Below, in pieces: positions 43,210 through 54,800 of a stretch of DNA of 64,000 nucleotides. The translations under genes were made by a program, and so were the position numbers. Numbering within the stretch: the stretch's first letter is position 1; each line of letters starts with the position of its first letter. The notes beneath the pieces were generated by a model. The model did no database searches. It saw only the letters and a program-made list of their open reading frames with translations, and had not been told where the DNA came from. The stretch covers positions 186,001-250,000 of the forward strand of contig NZ_JAGJDY010000001.1 of assembly GCF_018100795.1 (NCBI RefSeq), read 5' to 3'. Source of the DNA: Alteromonas sp. MMG017. GTDB taxonomy: Bacteria > Pseudomonadota > Gammaproteobacteria > Enterobacterales > Alteromonadaceae.

Positions 43210-44663
43210 AATACACCCTGTTTTGGCGTATGTGTACTGTAATTGGCGTAGGTACCGTACTGCTTTTTTGGGCCATAGACTGGTTAACTAATCATACCGA
43301 ATCTAGCATGAGCTTTATTGCACAAGAGCATCAGCAGCAATTGCTAGATTACGGAAAAGAAGCCGATGAAATTTGGAAAAATGAAGGTGAAGAAGCTCTA
43401 TCTGCTTGGCTTAAGATGCTTCAAGAAAAAGAGCAAACCTGGGTAGGTGTAGTTAGTTCAGATATAACTCCCCTGGCCGATTCCACTATCTACAAACCCT
43501 TTTTCGACCGCTTTCAATATGGCAGAAGTGTGGAGTGGAAAATACACTTATATTTTCAGCAAAACCCCGTGATGGAATTGCCCTTTGCCGATGCGAGCAC
43601 ACACTTATTAATTGAACTGCCTCAGCGTATGCGCCCGGGTGCAATGTTGCTGTACGCCAATGCCTTACTACAGATTGCGCTGCCGCTAATATTACTGTGC
43701 ATATTGAGTTTGGTGTTATACCGCCATGTAATGTCGCCGTTAAGAAAACTGGAGAACGTCACCAAATCCTTCAGTGCGGGACATTATGATGTAAGGACCA
43801 ATGCGTCGCTACTTGAGCGTAATGACGAACTTACCCGCTTAGCTGTTACTTTCGATAAAATGGCCGATAGAACCAGCAAGCTTATTTATAATCAACGCCA
43901 GTTACTGGCAGATTTATCTCATGAGTTACGCACACCGCTAACGCGCATCGATATGGCGGTTGATTTTGTAGAGCAACAAATTAACCCGCAACAAGCATTA
44001 GCGCGACTTCGCTACGAAGCTTCTACCATGCGCAACTTAGTTGAAGATACCCTTACTCTTGCGTGGTTAAACACTGAATCTCCTCAGCTAAATACTGATG
44101 ATTTTGATTTGGTGGAATTAATACAGGTTATTTGCGAAGACGCCCGATTCGAATACCCTGACAAAAACCTTGTTAGCACGCTGCCAGAAAAAGCGCCGTT
44201 AACCCAAAGCAGCCAAATAGCATTGGGCCAAGCAATAGAGAATATTATTCGTAACGCATTACGCCATACGCCTGAAAAATCGGAAGTAGAAGTACTGCTC
44301 GCCATCACCGAGCAGGGTTATCGGCTATGTGTGAAAGACAATGGCCCTGGCGTGCCTGAACATATGCTTGGGGACATTTTTAAGCCATTCTTTCGGGTAG
44401 ATAAAGCCAGGGCATCTATAGGCGAACGAATAGATACATCACAAAGCACTGGCTTTGGTTTAGGTTTGGCCTTAGCCCACCGGCAAATTGAAGCCGTAGG
44501 CGGCAGTATCAAAGCTCAAAACTATACTGATGATGCCCAGAGCTATAAGGAAGACGCCAGTGGCTATAACAACACTCCCCAGAGCCATAACGACAAAAAC
44601 ACCCAGCGCAGCGGGCTAAAAATTCAAATTGAATTACCTCGCTCATCGGCCACTGCTCACTAA
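43206..44663 (+). CDS. sensor histidine kinase, CpxA/RstB-like
   Basis: A 485-residue membrane kinase. Two membrane helices (about 8-28 and 155-178) flank a periplasmic sensor of about 125 residues. HAMP, then HisKA with the phospho-His in LADLSHELRTPLTR, and HATPase with NIIRNALRHTP, KDNGPGVP and STGFGLGLALA. Near the C-terminus a hydrophilic insert (about 440-470) with repeated SY/GY/SH units (DDAQSYKEDASGYNN) interrupts the last ATPase strand. Confidence 0.92.
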   Translation: MKYTLFWRMCTVIGVGTVLLFWAIDWLTNHTESSMSFIAQEHQQQLLDYGKEADEIWKNEGEEALSAWLKMLQEKEQTWVGVVSSDITPLADSTIYKPFFDRFQYGRSVEWKIHLYFQQNPVMELPFADASTHLLIELPQRMRPGAMLLYANALLQIALPLILLCILSLVLYRHVMSPLRKLENVTKSFSAGHYDVRTNASLLERNDELTRLAVTFDKMADRTSKLIYNQRQLLADLSHELRTPLTRIDMAVDFVEQQINPQQALARLRYEASTMRNLVEDTLTLAWLNTESPQLNTDDFDLVELIQVICEDARFEYPDKNLVSTLPEKAPLTQSSQIALGQAIENIIRNALRHTPEKSEVEVLLAITEQGYRLCVKDNGPGVPEHMLGDIFKPFFRVDKARASIGERIDTSQSTGFGLGLALAHRQIEAVGGSIKAQNYTDDAQSYKEDASGYNNTPQSHNDKNTQRSGLKIQIELPRSSATAH

Positions 44664-44776
44664 TGTTCACGAGTACCCATTGAACGACCTACTCTTTAAC
44701 TACGGGCTACCCTTAAATTTCTAACTCGGCGATGGGAACTCTCATTTTGACTAACCGTTTTGATTAACCGTTTCAA

Positions 44777-45952
44777 CTAATCGTATTGGCGCAACCGTTT
44801 GGGCTCGCTGACTAATCGGCGCCACGCCAATACAATGCCGGTATATACTAGTACACACGCTAGTAATGACACCAACCCCGCCACCGTTTGGCCAATAACC
44901 CCGAAGTATTCACCGGTATGTAAAAAACGTGCCGTACCCCATGCTTGCCCACCAAGAGACCAATCTTGTTTTCTTAGTACCTGGGTTACTTCGCCTGTTT
45001 GGGTATCGAAAAAAAGCGAATAAGCGAGTTCTTGTCTATGCCCAATGCTTTTATCAATGAAGAAACGGGCTTCGTGTTTATGCTCACCTATTTCCATCCA
45101 CATTGAATACCAGTCTTCGTACTCATTCGCACTGGCGTGTTGCTGGGCTGCTTTAAAGAGCGTTTCGTAGGGCACTAAGTCAGCCGCTAAACTGGTAATT
45201 CCTTCATGTTGCTCTCGGGCAGGCACACTTTCACCAAAGGCGCCGTATATGGCCTTATTGGCCCAATCGAAGTGAAAAATAGTAGCCGTTAACGCAATAA
45301 CAAACAGCGGTATTAAACACCAGATACCGAAGACGAAATGCCATTGCCGATTTCTATGATGTGAATTTTGATAGGTTTTGAGTAATAGGGTTTGCTGTTT
45401 AAAGGCCCTTAAATTGAAACGCTTGGGTAGCCATAAATAAAGGCCACTTACGATCAAAAAGATAAACACAAGATTGGCGTACGCCGTAATGTTTTTGCCT
45501 ATTGCGCGATAGTCACCTGCAAAGGATAAATACCGGTGAAAATCGGTGACCACATGGAAAAATTCTCCCACCATACCCTCGCCTTCTCGAAGAATTTCGC
45601 CAGTATAAGGGTGTAGTAAAAAGCTGTGCCTACCCGCCCAAGCAGGAATGACCGCGCCTTCTCGGTTTACCCAACGAACATAAATATGTGGTTCATTAGG
45701 CTTAAGCTGTTGCAGTATCGACACCACCTCATCGGTGCTGATACGAGTGCGGTCTGTCGGTTTGGTTTGGCTGGCTGAATCTTCTTTAGTGCTAACTTCT
45801 ACGTCGTATAGCCTTTCACTGAATTCTACGATTTGCCGTTCATAAGTCAGTAATACGCCCGTAAAGGACATACACAAAACAAATATGCCGGCAATTAAGC
45901 CGGCAATAAGGTGGGTCCAAAAAAACCACCTTTTTATCGTTTTAGCGCTCAT
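44777..45952 (-). CDS. PepSY-associated membrane protein (PiuB-like)
   Basis: A 391-residue PepSY-TM protein. Four main membrane segments are visible (WTHLIAGLIAGIFVLCMSFTG, the NLVFIFLIVSGLYLWLP segment, FGIWCLIPLFVIALTATIF, and the C-terminal VAGLVSLLACVLVYTGIVLAW). Conserved His in FHRYLSFAG, HHRNRQWHFVFG and FLHTGEYFG could bind haem. Such proteins often go with TonB receptors and are thought to reduce ferric siderophores in the periplasm. It follows the receptor gene by 18 bp in one operon. Confidence 0.88.
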   Translation of the reverse strand: MSAKTIKRWFFWTHLIAGLIAGIFVLCMSFTGVLLTYERQIVEFSERLYDVEVSTKEDSASQTKPTDRTRISTDEVVSILQQLKPNEPHIYVRWVNREGAVIPAWAGRHSFLLHPYTGEILREGEGMVGEFFHVVTDFHRYLSFAGDYRAIGKNITAYANLVFIFLIVSGLYLWLPKRFNLRAFKQQTLLLKTYQNSHHRNRQWHFVFGIWCLIPLFVIALTATIFHFDWANKAIYGAFGESVPAREQHEGITSLAADLVPYETLFKAAQQHASANEYEDWYSMWMEIGEHKHEARFFIDKSIGHRQELAYSLFFDTQTGEVTQVLRKQDWSLGGQAWGTARFLHTGEYFGVIGQTVAGLVSLLACVLVYTGIVLAWRRLVSEPKRLRQYD

Positions 45953-45970
45953 AGCGTTAGTGACCTAGCG

Positions 45971-48037
45971 CTAAAAATTATACGTCACTGATAGCCTGAT
46001 ATCTCTACCGGCTTCATGAGGGCCGATGACAGTAGCAAATACTTCGCTGTAATCACCCACACTTGAATGATCGATGTAGTACTCGTCAAACAAGTTTGAT
46101 ACCGCTAAGTTAACAAGTATGTTGCTTGTAGCCTGCCACTCACCATAGATATCAACCAAGGTGTAACTGGGTTTGTTTAGGGTATACAAACTATCTGTCC
46201 AACCCAAATCAACTGCTTGGTGCAAAGTATCAATATCTCGAGATCTAACCTGCCTAATACTTGTACCAACGCTAATATCGGCGTTAACCGTGTAATCTAC
46301 GCCAACCACTAAAGTATCGCCGCGGCTATTACCTAAGCCCACAAATTCATAACCGTTCAAATCAATAGATGAATAATCTACGTTGTAAATACCGTCTCTT
46401 GGGTCAAGTTCAGTATCAGCAGTTGAGAAACCAAAGAAAAAGTCGAATGAATCTACGCGATAGGCAAGATCGAACTCAATACCGCTGCTTTCTACAGTAC
46501 CAATGTTATTAAAAACAGAATTACCTTCGTAACCTTCAAAAATCACATCATCTAGGGTTGAGTTATAAACGCTTAATCTCGCATTTAAGTTGTTAGCGCT
46601 GTATTCAATTGAGGCTTCAATGTTTTGTACCGTTTCTGGTACCAAATCATCAGCAACTACTGGAATATCTGAGCCATCATAAAGGTAACCGTCGATCGTG
46701 AAACCATCGCCAATCTCTTTTCCTCTAGCGGCTTCGGCATAACCTAGCCCTAAGGTCCAAGCTTCGGTAAGCTGATAAGCAACACCAATATTGAAGCTTA
46801 ATTCAGAGTCGTCTAGTGAAGCTTCGCTGTCGGTAACTGGGGTACCGTAATACTCTTCAAGCAAAATGCGTTGCTGGAAATCATAGTCGTCGTAGCGCAC
46901 ACCATAGCTAAGCAATAGTTCAGGGGTAATGTCGCTATAACCTTGAGCGTAGATGCCCATAACGCTGCTTTCTTCCGCGTTCTCTACCGCTCCTGCTGCG
47001 GGGCCGCTATTCACTTCATCGCTGCGGTAATCTACACCGTATACAAACTTATGATTTGCTGTTTCGCTGGTATTGCGAATATCAAAACCGTAAGTATCAA
47101 TTTCAGCTAACCAGTTAAACCTACCACCTTGGAATGAAGAGTCGGTTTGATAGGCCGTGGCTTCTAAATAGAGCATGTCACTGTGCGCGAAACGGTAGTT
47201 TGCCACATAAGTATCACGCTGTGCTTCACTTGGGTAAAGTGCTGCACCTTCTAATACTACCCAGTTAGGGCGGGCAGAAAACTCACCCTCTTCGTCACGT
47301 TGTTCAACACTCAGCGATAAGTAATGGTTTTCTGCAATATCACCACTGGCTTTAAGGAACAACATATCTTGATCGGCTGCTGTGCCGTAAATTTCGTTTC
47401 CGTCGCCATCTTCCATATTGTCGCGATCTACCGTGCTGTAATAACCAAGCACGCCCCATGTATCACTTAGTTTTCCGTATAAACTACCGCTATAGCGTGT
47501 ACCGTCATTCGAAAAGTAACTTGCTTTAACACGGCCACCAAATTGCTCACCTTCAGCTAAAAGGTCGTCAGCATCTTTGGTTTTAAAGCGGATTGAACCA
47601 CCAATAGCACCAGGGCCACTGGTTGCTTCACCAGCACCAGCCTGCACATCAATTTGCTGGAGTAAATCTGGATCGATGGTGACACGGCCAATATGATGAA
47701 ATAGGGTTGAAGTTTGCTGCGCACCATCAACAGTAACATTTAAGTACGCGTCTTCCAGGCCACGGATATATATCTTTTGCGCCACGCCAACCGAACCACC
47801 AACACTAATGGAAGGCGAGTTGCGAAATATATCAGCGAGATCATTAGCTTGGTATTGCTCGATGTCTTCAGCAGTAATGCTTAAGTTTGTTGTAGCGCCT
47901 ACTACCGAGATTTTTTCAACAGCGGCTGTTTCGACAGGCTTAGCTTCATCAACTGCTTGTACCTGGGCATAGGAAAACGCGCTAGATAGAGTGCAAACCG
48001 CACCAATGAACACTCGTTTTTTCAAAGAAAGCTCCAA
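45971..48037 (-). CDS. TonB-dependent outer-membrane receptor, probably for iron
   Basis: A 688-residue TonB receptor: signal peptide ending SYAQ, TonB box near EKISVVG, plug domain (about 50-160, with YIRGLEDAYLNVTVDGAQQ and GAGEATSGPGAIGGSIRF), and a 22-strand barrel ending in ...RLSVTYNF with the terminal Phe. The downstream PepSY protein and a Fur-like site upstream point to ferric siderophore or haem uptake. The exact ligand is not evident. Confidence 0.92.
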   Translation of the reverse strand: MELSLKKRVFIGAVCTLSSAFSYAQVQAVDEAKPVETAAVEKISVVGATTNLSITAEDIEQYQANDLADIFRNSPSISVGGSVGVAQKIYIRGLEDAYLNVTVDGAQQTSTLFHHIGRVTIDPDLLQQIDVQAGAGEATSGPGAIGGSIRFKTKDADDLLAEGEQFGGRVKASYFSNDGTRYSGSLYGKLSDTWGVLGYYSTVDRDNMEDGDGNEIYGTAADQDMLFLKASGDIAENHYLSLSVEQRDEEGEFSARPNWVVLEGAALYPSEAQRDTYVANYRFAHSDMLYLEATAYQTDSSFQGGRFNWLAEIDTYGFDIRNTSETANHKFVYGVDYRSDEVNSGPAAGAVENAEESSVMGIYAQGYSDITPELLLSYGVRYDDYDFQQRILLEEYYGTPVTDSEASLDDSELSFNIGVAYQLTEAWTLGLGYAEAARGKEIGDGFTIDGYLYDGSDIPVVADDLVPETVQNIEASIEYSANNLNARLSVYNSTLDDVIFEGYEGNSVFNNIGTVESSGIEFDLAYRVDSFDFFFGFSTADTELDPRDGIYNVDYSSIDLNGYEFVGLGNSRGDTLVVGVDYTVNADISVGTSIRQVRSRDIDTLHQAVDLGWTDSLYTLNKPSYTLVDIYGEWQATSNILVNLAVSNLFDEYYIDHSSVGDYSEVFATVIGPHEAGRDIRLSVTYNF

Positions 48038-48050
48038 TTAAATGTTTAGT

Positions 48051-48076
48051 TATTCTTAATAAGAAACATTCTCATT
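48051..48076 (-). promoter_or_regulatory. putative Fur box before the TonB receptor
   Basis: On the minus strand TGAGAATGTTTCTTA fits 11 of 14 positions of the 7-1-7 Fur pattern, and it overlaps a TTCTT / AAGAA palindrome. It lies 15-40 bp before the receptor start, consistent with iron repression. Confidence 0.4.
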
Positions 48077-48143
48077 TACTTCGCCTTGAAAAGGTAGTGT
48101 TTTTACAATTGTTACATTTTGAGCTAAGAGGGAGTTTGAAAGA

Positions 48144-48317
48144 TTACTGTTGTTCGTCTACAGGCTGAGTATTTGGATCTTCACTATTCGCTTGCTCAGC
48201 TAGTTTTTCGCGCTCGGCTTTAGAAACATAAGCCGGTTTATTGCTCTTATGAATTTTAGCGTTCGCTTTTTTATCTTTCTTCTGAAGTTTCTTAATGATT
48301 TTTTTACGACGGTTCAT
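48144..48317 (-). CDS. DUF2986 small basic protein
   Basis: A 57-residue very basic protein from ATG 48317: MNRRKKIIKKLQKKDKKANA, then KPAYVSKAEREKLAEQ. It matches the DUF2986 pattern seen in Alteromonadales and Vibrionales. Function unknown. The lysine-rich helix suggests RNA or ribosome contact, which is inference. Confidence 0.75.
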   Translation of the reverse strand: MNRRKKIIKKLQKKDKKANAKIHKSNKPAYVSKAEREKLAEQANSEDPNTQPVDEQQ

Positions 48318-48411
48318 ACCCAATTGCCTCAAACAGCCTTACTCATTCTGCCTATTATACAGGGTTTACGGCTAAAGCTGCCAATATGCGTATTTGCGAA
48401 GGGGGCTTACT

Positions 48412-48537
48412 GAATAATGGTGCCTCGACCCGGGATTGTAACGCGCGGTGCAACCGCAGGGACACGCCAGCGTGTTCCGCTAACTTGATACATTAGCTAA
48501 GATCAAAAAAGCCCCGCATTTTCATGCAGGGCTTCTT
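48412..48537 (-). repeat. tRNA-Phe tail repeat, unit 4 (126 bp)
   Basis: Most distal unit from the tRNA. On the minus strand it has a terminator stem (GCCCTGCAT / ATGCGGGGC, T6), a GGAACACG / CGTGTCC hairpin, a GCGGT / ACCGC hairpin, and the copy of the last 19 nt of tRNA-Phe with CCA. After this last copy the next stretch starts like a terminator (AAGCCCCC) but does not form one. Confidence 0.9.
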
Positions 48538-48663
48538 GAATAATGGTGCCTCGACCCGGGATTGTAACGCGCGGTGCAACCGCAGGGACACGCCAGCGTG
48601 TTCCGCTAACTTGATACAATAGCCTAGATCAAAAAAGCCCTCGCATTTCTGCAAGGGCTTCCT
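48538..48663 (-). repeat. tRNA-Phe tail repeat, unit 3 (126 bp)
   Basis: Same plan as the other units. The terminator stem here is GCCCTTGCA / TGCGAGGGC followed by T6; it differs in sequence from its neighbours but remains paired. Confidence 0.9.
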
Positions 48664-48791
48664 GAATAATGGTGCCTCGACCCGGGATTGTAACGCGCGG
48701 TGCAACCGCAGGGACACGCCAGCGTGTTCCGCTAACTTGATACAATAGCTTAGATCAAAAAAGCCCCGAACATTTCTGTTCAGGGCCCTTC
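48664..48791 (-). repeat. tRNA-Phe tail repeat, unit 2 (128 bp)
   Basis: Same plan. The terminator stem is GCCCTGAACA / TGTTCGGGGC with a GAAA loop and T6. Confidence 0.9.
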
Positions 48792-48901
48792 GAATAATGG
48801 TGCCTCGACCCGGGATTGTAACGCGCGGTGCAACCGCAGGGACACGCCAGCGTGTTCCGATAGCCTAGATCTAAAAAGGCCCGCATAAATGCGAGCCTTT
48901 A
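48792..48901 (-). repeat. tRNA-Phe tail repeat, unit 1 (110 bp)
   Basis: First unit after the tRNA. It lacks about 13 bp (CTAACTTGATACA-like word) present in the other units but keeps the hairpins and the 19-nt tRNA tail. It begins with the terminator of the tRNA gene itself. Confidence 0.9.
48873..48900 (-). terminator. intrinsic terminator directly after tRNA-Phe
   Basis: On the minus strand AAAGGCTCGCAT / ATGCGGGCCTTT forms a 12-bp stem with one T-G pair, then T5. It is 7 nt from the CCA end and is the first of four related terminators in the array. Confidence 0.85.
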
Positions 48902-48907
48902 GAATAA

Positions 48908-48983
48908 TGGTGCCTCGACCCGGGATCGAACCAGGGACACGCGGATTTTCAATCCGCTGCTCTACCAACTGAGCTATCGAGGC
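48908..48983 (-). tRNA. tRNA-Phe (GAA)
   Basis: A 76-nt cloverleaf with CCA encoded. Acceptor GCCTCGA / TCGAGGC, D arm with AGTTGGTAGAGC, anticodon stem GCGGA / TCCGC with loop TTGAAAA (anticodon GAA), and T arm CCTGG TTCGATC CCGGG. It differs from E. coli tRNA-Phe mainly in stem pairs. It lies downstream of mutY-yggX on the same strand, with its own promoter. Confidence 0.97.
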
Positions 48984-49033
48984 AAAATCTTTTAGCGTTT
49001 GGGCGTTTGCTGCCTGTCTCGCTGTGGGTGCGT

Positions 49034-49062
49034 ATTAAACGGATTTCCGACTAACAAGTCAA
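49034..49062 (-). promoter_or_regulatory. promoter of tRNA-Phe
   Basis: On the minus strand TTGACT and TTTAAT are separated by 17 bp, followed by a GC-rich stretch (ACGCACCC) typical of stringently controlled stable-RNA promoters. Transcription would start about 42 nt before the tRNA. Confidence 0.7.
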
Positions 49063-49132
49063 CCGTTTTTGTCGGTTTTTTTTCGGTTTTGTTACCGTTT
49101 GCACATTGTTTATGCAAAATACGCTTTTTTGG

Positions 49133-49405
49133 TTATTTTTCAGGCGGAACATAGCCTTCAATTGTAGGTTCTACACCGTCGAACAAGTAAGCCGACATAC
49201 TTTGCTCTAAAAACTGTCTGGCGGTCGGTTCCATCATATTTAACTTATTTTCGTTAATTAGCATGGTTTGTTTCTTTTGCCAGTCGGCCCATGCTTCTTT
49301 TGAAATGTTGTCGTAAATACGTTTTCCTAGCTCACCGGGGTAAAGCTGAAAATCTAAGCCGTCGGCTTCTTTTTGTAAACGTTGGCAAAATACCACTCTA
49401 CTCAT
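49133..49405 (-). CDS. yggX: Fe(2+)-trafficking / oxidative damage protection protein YggX
   Basis: A 90-residue YggX. It has the single conserved Cys near the N-terminus ([19 protein letters not shown]), [15 protein letters not shown], and the [16 protein letters not shown] block. It protects iron-sulfur proteins from oxidative damage. It lies 26 bp after mutY, whose product has an iron-sulfur cluster, as in E. coli. Confidence 0.97.
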
Positions 49406-49431
49406 TGTATGTCCTTAACCTATTCGATGCG

Positions 49432-50493
49432 CTAAAGCACATGCACTAATTGTTGAATGATTTTCTTAGTAGGCGCAGCTAAACCTACCTCAATAGGTTC
49501 ATTAAACATAAACCATTGGGATTTTTGTTCTGCCACCTGCTTTCTGGGGACTGAGTTTATCACGGCAAACACCGGTGTTATATCCAAATGAAAGTGACTA
49601 AAGGTATGCCTAAACGCCGTTTGGGTTTCAAACGAACTGGCTTCAATACCTCGCTTGGCAAGTTCAGCTTCGGCGCTTTGTATATCTTGGGCTTCAATAA
49701 AGCCATATAAACCACCCCACAAGCCGCTAGAAGGCCGCTGCTCCAAATAAACCTGCTGTTGGAACAATGGCACTATAAGTAACGTACTTCGCTCTGGTAT
49801 GGCTTTCTTGGGCTTTTTACCAGGGAATTCAGTTTGTGCCCCTTGAGCATACGCCAAACAATCGTGTTGTAACGGGCATTCATCACACTTTGGCTTGCTG
49901 CGAGTACATACCATAGCCCCCAAATCCATCATCACTTGCGTGTAGTTGGCACTGCGTTTTTCTGGCGTGTTCTTTTCTGCCACTTCCCACAGCGCATTTT
50001 CTACTGCTTTTTGACCGGGCCAGCCGCCAATAGCATAGTAGCGAGCCAGCACGCGTTTCACATTGCCATCTAATATGGGGTGGCGCTGGTTGCGCGAAAT
50101 AGACAATACCGCGCCAGCGGTAGAACGCCCTATTCCAGGCAAAGCTATTACATCGTCTATGTTGTCAGGAAACGTACCGCCGTGCTGCTCTACAATTTGC
50201 TTCGCCGCTTTATGTAAATTTCTTGCGCGGGCGTAGTAGCCTAAACCTGTCCAATGGTGCAGTACATCATCTTGTGCTGCATTAGCTAGCTCCACCACGC
50301 TGGGGAAAGATTGCATAAACCGTTCAAAATACGGGATGACAGTGGTGACTTGTGTTTGCTGCAACATAATCTCAGACACCCACACTTTGTAAGGGGTAAT
50401 ATCTTGTTGCCATGGTAGGTGCTTGCGACCATGAATGTCGTACCAAGCAAGTACTCGTTCAGCAAAAGTGTTGGGGTTAACCGTATTTGTCAT
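49432..50493 (-). CDS. mutY: A/G-specific adenine DNA glycosylase
   Basis: A 353-residue MutY that removes adenine mispaired with 8-oxoguanine. Helix-hairpin-helix [14 protein letters not shown] with the catalytic Asp in [15 protein letters not shown], the [4Fe-4S] motif C-x6-C-x2-C-x5-C ([17 protein letters not shown]), and a C-terminal NUDIX-like 8-oxoG recognition domain. It is divergent from the hydrolase-trmB-rsmC group. Confidence 0.97.
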
Positions 50494-50604
50494 AAAAACT
50501 GCACAATGAATGACCTTTAGCTACATTTAATAGCCATTAGGTTTTATTGATAAATGGCCTGATATGTTAGCATGTCGAGGTATAAATGTATTTTAGGAGT
50601 CTTT

Positions 50605-51309
50605 GTGACCACCAGCGCCCCCGTTCTATTTCTACCCGGAACCTTATGCGACGAACGTGTTTGGTTGCCCGTTTGGCAACGCATGAAAATTTCCCAGCGT
50701 CGCTATGTGCCCTTACAGTGGGCCGCCACCAAAGACGACATGCTCGCGCTTACTTCTGACCGCGTCATTCAAGACGAAAAAGTACATCTTGTGGGCTATT
50801 CAATGGGTGGCTATATTGCAGCGTTATGGGCATCGCAAAATATGGAGCACGTGGCGTCTATTACGCTTATTGGATACGATGCCAAAGGCTTATCTAGCGA
50901 AGAAATAGCAAGAAGAAAGCAAATGGTCTCTATGCTGAGTAACGGTGAATTCAAGCCTGAAAACCCTGCCTATTTCGCTCGCTTTGTTCACACTACACAT
51001 CAAGAAAATCCCGATGTTATGGGCGTTGTGCAGTCTATGGCCGAAGACTTGGGTAAAAATACCTTAGTGGGTCACACTCAAGCGACAACACCTAGAGAAG
51101 ACCTGATAAAAGTATTCGCAAAATCAAAGGTCCCCGTTAATATCATTGCTGCGGATGACGATGAAATTGCACCACTAGGTTCGCTACAAGCAATGGCCGA
51201 CAAAATACCTACTTCGAATATTTACAAAGTAGAAAATTCCGGACATATGATGCTGCTGGAACAACCCGAAAAGCTTGCTACACTGCTTAGCAATTGTATA
51301 GATGTTTAA
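50605..51309 (+). CDS. alpha/beta hydrolase
   Basis: A 234-residue alpha/beta hydrolase from GTG 50605, chosen because AGGAG lies five bases upstream; an in-frame ATG at 50572 has no ribosome site. Nucleophile Ser in LVGYSMGGYIAAL, oxyanion region LFLPGTLCDERVW, and catalytic His in SGHMMLLEQPE. Resembles the MhpC/BioH-like group. Substrate unknown. Confidence 0.85.
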   Translation: MTTSAPVLFLPGTLCDERVWLPVWQRMKISQRRYVPLQWAATKDDMLALTSDRVIQDEKVHLVGYSMGGYIAALWASQNMEHVASITLIGYDAKGLSSEEIARRKQMVSMLSNGEFKPENPAYFARFVHTTHQENPDVMGVVQSMAEDLGKNTLVGHTQATTPREDLIKVFAKSKVPVNIIAADDDEIAPLGSLQAMADKIPTSNIYKVENSGHMMLLEQPEKLATLLSNCIDV

Positions 51310-51424
51310 AAAAACCGCATTTTATTCGCTCTTTATTGTGCTTTTAGTTAAATATAGCGTTGCATAACATGCCGCTAACTGGATAATGCGCCACCAGTAA
51401 ATTGGGGCAAGAAAGGTATTGCAA

Positions 51425-52144
51425 ATGAGGCAATTCAAAAGCCAGGCCGAGGCTGAAGCCGCTGGTGTTCACGTAAGTAAAGTTAAAAGCTTCGTAAAGC
51501 GCGAAGGCCGCTTAACAAAAGCGCAAACTCGCGCCATTGAAGAATTTTGGCCAACCATGGGTATTGATTACCAAAAGGCTGAACTCGACTTATCTGTGCT
51601 GTTCGGCAGAACCGCGCCAGTAGTCATTGAAATTGGCTTTGGTATGGGTAAATCATTGGTTGAAATGGCCGCAGCTGCCCCTGAGAAAAATTTCATTGGC
51701 ATTGAAGTGCATCGACCTGGCGTAGGTGCTTGTTTGGCTGAAGCTGGCGAACAGGGTTTAACCAATTTGCGCGTGATGGATCACGATGCAGTTGAAGTAC
51801 TTAAGAATATGATCCCAGATGGTGGGTTGTCTCGATTGCAATTGTTCTTCCCCGATCCTTGGCATAAAAAGCGTCACCATAAGCGCCGTATTGTTCAGCC
51901 TGAATTTGCTGCCCTTGTGCTAACCAAATTAGAAAAAGGCGGCTGTTTCCATATGGCTACCGACTGGGAACCTTACGCAGAACACATGGCCGAAGTAATG
52001 GATGCAACTTCAGGCTATGCAAATACTGCACAAGAAGGTACCTATGTGCCTCGCCCTGAATATCGACCTATCACTAAATTTGAAACCCGTGGCCAAAAGC
52101 TAGGTCATGGTGTTTGGGATCTTATTTACGAGCGAGCGCAGTAA
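51425..52144 (+). CDS. trmB: tRNA (guanine-N7-)-methyltransferase TrmB
   Basis: A 239-residue TrmB that makes m7G46 in tRNA. SAM motif [17 protein letters not shown], then [12 protein letters not shown], the signature [18 protein letters not shown], and [13 protein letters not shown] 51425 has AAAGG eight bases upstream and is preferred to the TTG at 51419. Stop overlaps the rsmC start (TAATG). Confidence 0.97.
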
Positions 52145-53223
52145 TGATTTTAACGCCTCAAAGCCAACTATTAGAACGCAATATCAACATTTTTGAGCAA
52201 GGCGAATGGTTGTTTATCAACCCTTCTGATGCCTACTTCCTTGATGCCCTTAAGCATAAAAATATAACGGTAATGCACCAATACTTCGACATATTTTCTG
52301 AATGTGTTCGAGTAATATCGTCATCAAGCTTTGATAGCCGCGATATCACTAAAGATGGTTTTGAGGTAGTACAAAAAGTGGGGTCGCACACTCATCATTT
52401 CACGCCATTTATGCGTAATGAGCATACCCATACTGACGTGCTAATTTTTCTGCCTAAAGCAAAATCTCATTTTCAAATGCTATTGCGCATGGCAGCCGGC
52501 ATGGTGGGTCAAAATGGCCGCATCCATGTAGTGGGCGAAAACAAAGGCGGCATTAAAAGCGCTGCTAAACTCATGCAACCTTACGGGGTTACCCATAAAG
52601 TAGATTCTGCCCGTCACTGCAGTTTAATTACCACCATTGTTGAACAGCCTCACTTAGCGTTTGAACCAGAAGCTTGGCTTGAAACCGACACTTATGAGAT
52701 TGGCAGCACAAGCTGGCCTGTATGCTCTTTACCTGGCGTATTTAGCCATGGCGAACTCGACAAAGGCACCAAGCTACTGCTAGAAAAACATACCTCGGGT
52801 ATGAGTGGCAATGTATTAGACTTCGCATGTGGTGCCGGGGTAATTGCTAGTTACTTAATGCTTACCTACCCTCACTTAAAAATGCAGTTGTCAGATATAA
52901 GCGCCCTTGCGATTTATGCCAGTGCAATGACGTTAGCGGCCAATGGTCAATCAGCCACCTTGCATGCTGCGAACGGTTTATATGGCATCGAGGGGAAAGT
53001 ACAGCATATTGTCACCAACCCACCATTTCATACTGGCCTTAAAACCGACTACACCATTACCAAGCGATTTATTGAAGACGCTCGTAAAATGCTAAGTCAA
53101 AACGGCACGTTGCAAATGGTTGCTAACCGTTTCTTGCCCTACCCTGGGCTGCTAGCTGAACACTTCCCTCGCGTGTTAACTACTGCACAAACCACACAAT
53201 TTTCGTTATATCAGGCAGCATAG
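52144..53223 (+). CDS. rsmC: 16S rRNA (guanine1207-N2)-methyltransferase RsmC
   Basis: A 359-residue methyltransferase with a degenerate N-terminal half and a catalytic C-terminal half. SAM motif VLDFACGAGVIASYL and the catalytic NPPF in HIVTNPPFHTGLKTDY. The signature fits RsmC rather than RlmG. The start overlaps the trmB stop codon, implying coupled expression of two RNA methylases. Confidence 0.9.
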   Translation: MILTPQSQLLERNINIFEQGEWLFINPSDAYFLDALKHKNITVMHQYFDIFSECVRVISSSSFDSRDITKDGFEVVQKVGSHTHHFTPFMRNEHTHTDVLIFLPKAKSHFQMLLRMAAGMVGQNGRIHVVGENKGGIKSAAKLMQPYGVTHKVDSARHCSLITTIVEQPHLAFEPEAWLETDTYEIGSTSWPVCSLPGVFSHGELDKGTKLLLEKHTSGMSGNVLDFACGAGVIASYLMLTYPHLKMQLSDISALAIYASAMTLAANGQSATLHAANGLYGIEGKVQHIVTNPPFHTGLKTDYTITKRFIEDARKMLSQNGTLQMVANRFLPYPGLLAEHFPRVLTTAQTTQFSLYQAA

Positions 53224-53375
53224 TAATAGCACTTTTACTAAAGCCTGTGCTAACGTAAATAGATTCCCCCTATATTCGATATATGGGGCTGAATATATGT
53301 CAGCCCTAATTCGCGCAACAGCTATAGAGCCCACTCAGAGGCCATAGGCGCGTTCATATAATACGAGGCATTCGT

Positions 53376-54800
53376 GTGAAAATTGTATTCGCTATCTCTG
53401 AAGTAGAAGAACTGGTAAAAACAGGTGGCTTAGCAGATGTCGGCAAAGCACTTCCACTTGCATTAAAAGACGCAGGAGAAGATGTAGCCATTGTTATGCC
53501 TTACTACAAGGTATTAGCAGACTCGTTAGACTTACCTACGGCATGTGAAACACAAACGCTATTCACCGAATACAAGGTATATAACTTCGAAGTGCGAGTA
53601 ATGGACTGGCATGGCATACCCGTATACTTTGTAGATTACCCAGAATACTTCATGCGTGAAGGTTTGTACTCCAACGCGTACGAGGCTTATGAAGACAATG
53701 GCGAGCGCTTTTGTTTCTTTAGTGGCGCAGTATTGGCCGCCCTTCAAGCTATTAATTATTCGCCAGACGTTATTCATTGCCACGATTGGCATACGGCCAT
53801 GCTGCCTTACCTAACAGCTTACGATAACACTGGATTTTTTGATAAAACCCGTACCGTATTTACCATTCACAATGCCGCGTTCCAAGGGGTAAACCTACTT
53901 GAAAAAGTACCGTTTCTACGCCATCACCCCGGCATTCTGGCACAGGTTCATGGCGGCTATATCAATATGCTTCAATCGGGTATCGAGTTTGCCACTAAAG
54001 TAACCACCGTTAGCCCCCATTACGCACAAGAGCTGTTAACCGACCTAGGCAGCCACGGTTTGCATGAACGTTTAGTTAGACGTAAAACTGACCTTTCCGG
54101 CATATTAAACGGGTGCGATTATACGCAATGGAACCCAGCTACTGATTCTTTCTTACCAGAACACTACGATGTAGATAACCTACTGCCTAAGCAAACCTGT
54201 AAGAGCGCCTTACAAGAAAAGTCTGGTTTGCCGAAAAATGTCAGTATTCCACTTATTGGTATGGTGTGTCGTCTTACCGAGCAGAAAGGTTTTGGCTATA
54301 TTCTGCCTATTCTTGATGAACTGGTTCAGCATAATGTGCAAATCGTTATTGTAGGTACTGGCGATCCTAAAATGTGTATGGATTTGGGTGAATTTGCGCA
54401 AAATAATCCGTCTCAGTTCGCGTTTATTAATGGGTTTAGCTCAGAACACGCGCATCTTGTTGAGGCCGGCGCCGACTTCTTCTTAATGCCATCGCAGTTT
54501 GAGCCTTGTGGGCTAAATCAAATGTACAGTTTGGCCTACGGCACCATTCCTATCGTGCGCGCGGTAGGTGGTTTGAAAGACACTGTGGTGGACAATCGCC
54601 ATAGCGAAGATGCCACAGGCTTTGTGTTTGAACAGCCACGCCCTGAAGCCCTGCTTGCCTGTATTCGTCGCGCTTTATTGTTTTATTACGAGCACCCAGT
54701 GAAGTTCAGAGAAATGCAGCAAAGAGGTATGAATACCCGCTTTACTTGGGAACGTGCCGCTGGTGAATATATAAAACTTTACGAATCTATGTTCGTTTAA
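53376..54800 (+). CDS. glgA: glycogen synthase GlgA
   Basis: A 474-residue GT5 glycogen synthase using ADP-glucose. The KTGGL motif is at the N-terminus (EELVKTGGLADVGKALP), with HCHDWHTAML, IHNAAFQG, and the C-terminal PSQFEPCGLNQMYSLAYGTIP. It starts at GTG 53376 with GAGG upstream. No other glycogen gene is in the window, so it is separated from the usual glgBCX operon. Confidence 0.95.
   Translation: MKIVFAISEVEELVKTGGLADVGKALPLALKDAGEDVAIVMPYYKVLADSLDLPTACETQTLFTEYKVYNFEVRVMDWHGIPVYFVDYPEYFMREGLYSNAYEAYEDNGERFCFFSGAVLAALQAINYSPDVIHCHDWHTAMLPYLTAYDNTGFFDKTRTVFTIHNAAFQGVNLLEKVPFLRHHPGILAQVHGGYINMLQSGIEFATKVTTVSPHYAQELLTDLGSHGLHERLVRRKTDLSGILNGCDYTQWNPATDSFLPEHYDVDNLLPKQTCKSALQEKSGLPKNVSIPLIGMVCRLTEQKGFGYILPILDELVQHNVQIVIVGTGDPKMCMDLGEFAQNNPSQFAFINGFSSEHAHLVEAGADFFLMPSQFEPCGLNQMYSLAYGTIPIVRAVGGLKDTVVDNRHSEDATGFVFEQPRPEALLACIRRALLFYYEHPVKFREMQQRGMNTRFTWERAAGEYIKLYESMFV

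Follow-up and report, generated by a model that had tools for sequence, protein, structure and literature searches.

The tandem array behind the tRNA-Phe gene of Alteromonas sp. MMG017 is interpreted here as a series of small structured RNAs that, in the manner of rtT, are tied to the tRNA gene, an overall explanation in which we place moderate confidence. The position, strand and plan of the units, their conservation, their co-change with the tRNA and their paired structure are directly supported. Taken by itself, the reading of the Phe array as a structured, transcribed array of the rtT kind is quite probable on the sequence data, and a titration role of the released units would be a tentative, rather doubtful addition.

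Anatomy of the array behind tRNA-Phe

The features of the locus, numbered within the window (i.e., the whole stretch of 64,000 nucleotides that was analyzed), are the following:

49034..49062, minus strand: promoter-like sequence TTGACT-17-TTTAAT 5' of tRNA-Phe, recognized by eye only
48908..48983, minus strand: tRNA-Phe (GAA) with the type I acceptor GCCTCGA/TCGAGGC (ARAGORN; Rfam RF00005, 67.9 bits); the 3'-terminal 19 nt (48908-48926) recur as the tail of the units
48873..48900, minus strand: intrinsic terminator-like hairpin after tRNA-Phe (AAAGGCTCGCA TTTA TGCGGGCCTTT TT), found with a looser rule, which is also the start of unit 1
48792..48901, minus strand: unit 1 (110 bp), with terminator, short spacer, hairpin A, hairpin B, linker, tail (48798-48816) and trailer TTATTC
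48840..48858, minus strand: hairpin A of unit 1 (GGAACACGCTGGCGTGTCC), in units 2-4 from 48712, 48586 and 48460; the 3' strand is tRNA-like variable loop/T-stem sequence, and support for pairing of the 5' flank is moderate
48825..48837, minus strand: hairpin B of unit 1 (GCGGTTGCACCGC), inserted in the T arm and supported by covariation, in units 2-4 from 48697, 48571 and 48445
48664..48791, minus strand: unit 2 (128 bp), with terminator-like hairpin 48757-48791 and tail 48670-48688
48538..48663, minus strand: unit 3 (126 bp), with terminator-like hairpin 48631-48663 and tail 48544-48562
48412..48537, minus strand: unit 4 (126 bp), with terminator-like hairpin 48505-48537 and tail 48418-48436, and without a terminator-like stem 3' of it

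The coordinates confirm the four units of 110, 128, 126 and 126 bp (outwards from tRNA-Phe) that a preliminary description of the locus had listed. It had also correctly placed them after tRNA-Phe; the direction has to be corrected, since the array is on the minus strand and runs to lower coordinates. The 25-nt string made up of the last 19 nt of tRNA-Phe and TTATTC is present on the minus strand at 48902-48926, which is the tRNA itself, and again at 48792-48816, 48664-48688, 48538-48562 and 48412-48436. Chance does not account for four exact 25-nt copies. The 11-nt word GCGTGTCCCTG occurs in the tRNA at 48932-48942 and in the units from 48837, 48709, 48583 and 48457, so that the string positions bear out the earlier statement that each unit carries the 19 nt, the next 6 nt and this word. 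Tandem Repeats Finder scored the array with 774 at a period of 126.

From 5' to 3', a unit is composed of a terminator-like hairpin, an A+T-rich spacer (short in unit 1), hairpin A (GGAACACG-CTGG-CGTGTCC) and hairpin B (GCGG-TTGCA-CCGC), followed by CGCGTTACA, ATCCCGGGTCGAGGCACCA and the trailer. The sequence of the terminator-like hairpin differs from unit to unit in the four Phe units, whereby the pairing is retained. A reading of the tRNA, GCGTGTCCCTG^GTTCGATCCCGGGTCGAGGCACCA, against the unit, GCGTGTCCCTG-[CGGTTGCACCGCGC]-GTTACAATCCCGGGTCGAGGCACCA, shows that a unit is made of the 3' part of tRNA-Phe, starting in the variable loop, whose T arm has received a hairpin insert. Its parts are the variable-loop/T-stem word, the inserted hairpin, the T-stem 3' strand, the acceptor strand, CCA and usually an intrinsic terminator. 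The T-loop-like motif has one extra purine (GTTRCRA vs. GTTCRA), and the tRNA-Phe 5' half is missing. The 11-nt and the 19-nt matches to the tRNA are separate because the hairpin interrupts the copied T arm.

A stricter promoter and terminator scan of the locus reported no promoter and no minus-strand terminator, whereupon terminators were rescored with the looser rule. The Rfam rows for NsiR1 and Plastid-ycf2 at the locus were far below their own cut-offs. When the units were read as a basic peptide of the Tpr kind, stops were present in 1, 2 and 8 of 33 units in the three frames; the one frame that is stop-free in 32 of the 33 units covers a short, G+C-rich stretch in which a start codon is not conserved.

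Distribution, co-change with the tRNA and structure

The unit was searched for with R1, a covariance model of the 44-nt unit core from which the tail is excluded. At E<=0.01, R1 matched in 37 of 59 Alteromonas genomes with one to six copies each. In the genome of the window all four matches are at the tRNA-Phe locus, and a single-contig genome of the same species carries six units. Thus, the two findings that would have spoken against a tRNA-linked element according to the preliminary description, namely a dispersed repeat unrelated to tRNA genes or a unit that no related strain has, were not seen. Its proposal to search for the unit without the tRNA part and to check whether it always follows a tRNA gene was borne out in part: relatives have the core, and a tRNA was not within the 3-kb stretch for L075 and for some contig ends. 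Units were found by reading in six of the 22 genomes without an R1 match (G002, G013, G032, G040, G042, and G052). Up to 16 of the 59 genomes may therefore lack the unit, which is thus not essential. A blastn search with one unit gave matches in 43 of the 59 genomes, some of them covering the terminator only.

Within the family, R1 matched in 12 of 295 genomes from 2 of 52 genera (Alteromonas and one other), a count that is a lower bound because R1 predates the knowledge of the type II units described below. The sole match outside Alteromonas (L078, G250) is a decayed unit after tRNA-Phe. An exact-pattern scan of named genomes yielded 14 stretches, all from Alteromonas; in many other species the 11-nt word of the unit is inexact. 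Viral contigs contained no exact match to GTTRCRATCCCGGGTCGAGGCACCA, and among the best 20 of 280 and of 343 plasmid and phage records, the blastn alignments were confined to the tRNA and no more than 36 bases 3' of it. A literature search, mostly outside subscription papers, returned nothing on the Alteromonas repeats described here or on a rule by which units carry the tail of their own tRNA.

Alteromonas tRNA-Phe occurs in two main types, plus minor variants. Type I has the form GCCTCGA...CCTGG/CCGGG...TCGAGGC and type II the form GCCCAGA...GGTGG/CCGCC...TCTGGGC. At 29 loci with an intact tRNA-Phe (the locus of G017 was entered twice), the type of the unit tail was that of its own tRNA in 42 of 42 scored rows, whereby type II was assigned where the type I pattern failed and the assignment was checked on the rows. 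The T-stem word matched the type of the own tRNA in 40 of these rows and could not be scored in the other two. Scoring missed L011 +102, L017 +228 and the units of L100, L110 and L123; by reading, these units also obey the rule, with damaged tails in L123 and L110. The exception is G032, in which type II-like units are located beyond an island and the tRNA is of type I. In G040, which is of type II, hairpin B and linker are very similar to their counterparts in the type I genomes G011 and G017. Since hairpin and linker are thus alike across types, the tRNA-derived pieces on both flanks have switched and the hairpin has stayed. As a separate observation, L105 (G020) carries a type II and then a type I tRNA-Phe in tandem at 696-901.

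Pairing was evaluated on alignments of 41 distinct unit cores, from which hybrids, i.e., units fused to the anticodon side of the tRNA, had been left out. Alignment A1 comprised 40 of the 41 cores (without L031), A2 comprised 33, A3 consisted of 33 chosen units of both types, and A4 was A3 minus nine units with the hairpin out of register (24 units). In A2, which is mainly type I, covariation was weak (84.1% paired vs. 82.6% in shuffled alignments), and the innermost pair of hairpin B was unpaired in 12 of 32 units. In A3, 79.8% of the cells of T stem and hairpin B were paired vs. 65.5% after shuffling, six of eight pairs showed two-sided changes, and the covariation score was 0.358 vs. 0.171 in shuffled alignments (reached in 0/500), with slid controls at <=0.155. 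The 24 in-register units of A4 were 95.8% paired, again with two-sided changes in six of eight pairs and a score of 0.443 vs. 0.123 (0/500). Four of the six covarying pairs belong to hairpin B; the other two are T-stem pairs, which covary because the change is inherited from the tRNA. For hairpin A, the arm of the own type paired better than that of the other type in 28 of 33 units, equally well in one and worse in four, and shuffled flanks were beaten (<=15 of 300) in 13 of the 33 units only.

The main rival to this reading is a neutral tandem duplication, in which a functionless copy of the tRNA 3' end, including trailer and terminator, arose, is decaying and is made uniform with the tRNA again by recombination; we regard this as rather unlikely. 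The range of copy numbers from none to six among genomes fits such a process, as do the repetition of trailer and terminator along with the tail and the decayed units in L091, L110 and, as one unit, in L141. Hybrid junctions in L023, L025, L027 and L104 suggest recombination between tRNA half and unit, and the tails of the Val units described below have drifted in 9 of 17 loci. A functionless duplication is, however, less easily reconciled with the two-sided changes in the inserted hairpin, with the switch of the tRNA parts on both flanks of an unchanged hairpin and linker, and with the recurrence of T-arm insertions at unrelated tRNAs and at rtT-model loci of other genera. It is also opposed by the retention of terminator-like stems, which at 26 loci were found 3' of 25/25 tRNA or displaced tRNA 3' ends and of 42/52 unit ends (ends with <55 nt downstream were skipped). 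The same stems would weigh on the other side as well: terminators ahead of each unit would lower the transcription of that unit, which counts against the rtT-like reading.

Islands and att scars at tRNA-Phe

The tRNA-Phe gene is an integration site for islands in Alteromonas. Displaced tRNA-Phe 3' halves of 45-48 nt are present in at least 15 of the 59 genomes, and a Phage_integrase-family gene (Pfam E 1.1e-9) adjoins one of them (L114). Distal to the tRNA, four junctions (L023, L025, L027, and L104) were observed at which the anticodon side of tRNA-Phe is fused to a unit hairpin. These junctions and the displaced halves represent recombination at the locus, and their anatomy is unlike that of the units. 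The cargo of L104 includes two TonB receptors, a FecR protein and a sigma factor according to Pfam.

Att scars of tRNA-targeting islands resemble the units in that they repeat part of the tRNA 3' end near the gene. The units might stem from elements that inserted at the 3' end of the tRNA, or serve as spare attB sites by which the tRNA gene is protected, and the busy integration site, the integrase gene beside a displaced half, the four junctions and a sequence beyond a unit that is common to G018 and G039 are in line with this. Nevertheless, this explanation is quite improbable. The att copies, including the displaced halves at this very locus, run without a break from anticodon loop to CCA, whereas the units have a remodeled T arm with a hairpin and usually a terminator; an uninterrupted 3' half was not found in the Phe units. 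Furthermore, no integrase family was identified by Pfam among the nine larger ORFs between the junctions of L098, L104 and L105, units are present whether or not the locus has an island, and other tRNAs have arrays of this design as well. The att-site remnants that the preliminary description had listed among the possible roles are weakened accordingly.

On the other side of the gene, tRNA-Phe 5' halves were noticed 167-207 bp upstream of the intact gene in eight genomes (G004, G007, G024, G026, G030, G048, G053, and G056). They comprise 38 nt (33 nt matched in G053) and end in the anticodon loop; the region of G024 is located at about 364-750 of L107. Between 5' half and gene, TTGCAAAG direct repeats are present in G007, G024, G030 and G053, with two tandem copies in G024. 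These upstream halves have the appearance of scars left by an integrase that restores the 5' half.

Comparison with rtT and arrays at other tRNAs

The E. coli rtT repeats (RF00391) share the plan of the Phe array. They are tandem units 3' of a tRNA which end in an exact tail with CCA and in which tRNA-derived T-stem strands flank inserted hairpins (by eye, AAGG/CCTT in E. coli). Correspondingly, the Phe units are arranged in tandem on the tRNA strand 3' of the gene, all four end in the exact tail of their own tRNA with CCA, and a hairpin lies between tRNA-derived T-stem strands. The rtT-like architecture that had been proposed at the outset is thus found in position, tail and T-arm hairpins. 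The accompanying impression that the unit sequence itself is unrelated to rtT holds as well: Rfam RtT gave no row at E<=1 in positions 44000-54000 of the window or at six other Alteromonas loci, and no match at E<=0.001 in the whole genome of the window. In the E. coli control, three matches of 133.8-137.5 bits lie 3' of tyrV and a fourth (132.9 bits) between tyrT and tyrV. By sequence, the Phe units thus fall outside RtT, for which the cut-off is 45 bits.

Several differences in construction go along with this. By eye, the inserted part is shorter in the Phe units and consists of one hairpin, whereas rtT has several. In rtT, the tail is the pairing partner of the 5' arm (a contiguous stem of 8 nt, reached in 1/500 shuffles), whereas the 5' arm of the Phe unit pairs with the variable loop/T-stem strand. 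Pairing of 5' arm and tail was discarded as a rule for rtT-type units, as it was clear in only 5 of 19 rows (<=8 of 500 shuffles). Moreover, terminator-like hairpins between the units distinguish the Phe array from rtT, the units of which are 178 bp apart in E. coli, and a Tpr-like peptide is not clearly recognizable in the Phe units.

The rtT-like reading of the Phe array would imply the following course. Read-through from the tRNA promoter would give RNAs that contain tRNA plus units, and the tRNA 3'-maturation machinery, meeting the shared tail and trailer, would cut and trim each unit to its CCA end, as is suggested by the E. coli RttR annotation (171 nt with an exact end at CCA). Once freed, the units might influence tRNA metabolism in trans; the simplest way would be a titration of tRNA 3'-processing enzymes or of enzymes that bind CCA or the T arm, and the amount of units would thus follow tRNA transcription. 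The arrays could expand and contract by recombination between identical tails and trailers, and recombination together with selection for T-stem pairing may hold the units in step with the tRNA.

RtT is not restricted to E. coli. Among 229 genomes of the class, the model matched in 43 genomes from 38 of 196 genera at E<=0.001, of which 15 were above the curated cut-off. These were represented by 60 stretches covering all 43 genomes, and 55 of them contain a tRNA. A free copy of the own tail (<=2 mismatches in 16 nt) was found in 46 of the 55 loci (by gene, Ser 22, Gln 18, Tyr 4, Glu 1, Arg 1, and Val 1) and was not found in nine. Tails of other tRNA kinds were recovered in 0 of 1447 tests within stretches with own-tail copies. 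The RtT model ends in the tail and thereby favors CCA-ended tails, not the tail of a particular tRNA except Tyr. An opposite-strand own-tail control was positive in 5 of the 55 loci, at least partly because the 5' arm of some units is complementary to the tail.

Part of this picture has been published. That RtT RNAs are released during tRNA processing, and from several tRNA operons, is already stated in the sections consulted of a study on Actinobacillus pleuropneumoniae (PMC4986893), in which the RtT RNAs Arrc20 and Arrc21 were shown to be expressed by RT-PCR and northern blot. They adjoin Asn and Lys tRNA genes and are described as upstream of them; they were assigned by Rfam match, and the same sections do not mention a matching of the tail to the own tRNA (PMC4986893). 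A tandem GA motif is described for RtT RNA in the accessible part of PMC7657543. The archaeal post-tRNA motif resembles the units as a structured element with a fixed place after many tRNA genes; unlike them, it is a single palindrome without a tandem tail copy. The 3'ETS-leuZ sponge is likewise an RNA from a tRNA trailer region, and to our knowledge it is neither tandem nor does it contain tail copies.

Within the genome of the window, the regions 3' of all 51 Rfam tRNA genes (48 + 3) were checked for copies of the own tail, some genes having <700 bp downstream at a contig end. Exact free 19-nt copies were found after tRNA-Phe (four) and after a tRNA-Leu (one), and inexact copies after a tRNA-Val and a tRNA-Gly within arrays similar to that of Phe. 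An isolated copy with three mismatches 634 bp 3' of a tRNA-Thr looks like chance. The arrays consist of two units and a decayed third at tRNA-Val, one and a decayed second at tRNA-Gly, and two at tRNA-Leu. By reading, the units follow the plan T-stem word, inserted hairpin, linker and tail, with the linker GTTRCRA in Val, GTTACAA or GTTACCA in Gly and none in Leu. DNA of the Val array matches in 35 and that of the Gly array in 30 of the 59 Alteromonas genomes, whereby the weakest rows may cover the tail only. Among the fetched loci that contain the tRNA, own-tail copies with <=2 substitutions in 16 nt are present in 18/18 Gly and 8/17 Val loci; within four edits they are present in 17/17 Val loci, where the tail is thus kept loosely. 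The Val and Gly loci were fetched by similarity to units and are therefore not a random sample. The preliminary description of the Phe locus is supported in part: it had missed the remodeled T arm, the tracking of the tRNA type and the arrays at other tRNAs.

We give a little more than an even chance to the view that Gammaproteobacteria carry a general, largely unrecognized class of tRNA-linked RNAs, consisting of a tRNA 3' copy with T-arm hairpins that is matched to its own upstream tRNA, of which rtT would be one member. It would extend to Phe, Val, Gly, Leu, Tyr, Ser, Gln, Glu and Arg tRNAs, the T-arm insertions at other tRNAs and at rtT loci being judged by reading. So far, rtT has been a curiosity of the tyrT operon in E. 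coli; a link to the stringent response has been suggested for it (PMC4986893). If such a class exists, the matched tail would turn the units into reporters or decoys dedicated to the processing of a single tRNA each. Should the own-tail rule prove general, T-arm remodeling and concerted change with the tRNA would recur across a bacterial class, and several tRNAs, many genera and Phe copies from none to six would provide natural replicates for function tests. For annotation pipelines, the arrays are a warning that tail copies beside tRNAs are not always att sites of islands.

The units of Leu (L270) and Gly (L157/L191) have the inserted hairpin CCGAGTGTCGRCC in common, which hints at a possible transfer of the insert between the two arrays. 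Such sharing within the genome of the window would be expected of a selfish hairpin element that invades the T arm of a copied tRNA and moves from one tRNA array to another, and the almost complete tRNA-Gly copies in L194 and L199, with an insertion in the T arm, point in the same direction. It is the least probable of the explanations considered here, since by eye the Phe, Val and Gly/Leu units have hairpins of different sequence, and a search of its own genome at E<=0.01 gave no further place for the Phe core.

Altogether, tRNA-Gly copies that carry a hairpin insertion in the T arm, either near full-length or altered, were noticed in L194 (1354-1442), L199, L202 and L274, whereby the copy in L194 still scores 45.6 bits with the Rfam tRNA model. 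The most compact form of the design was found in G027 (L273, about 870-1220), where the Val array has six units, each about 47 bp long, and a truncated seventh; they comprise little more than the T arm with a UUCG hairpin, the acceptor strand and CCA, with inexact tails.
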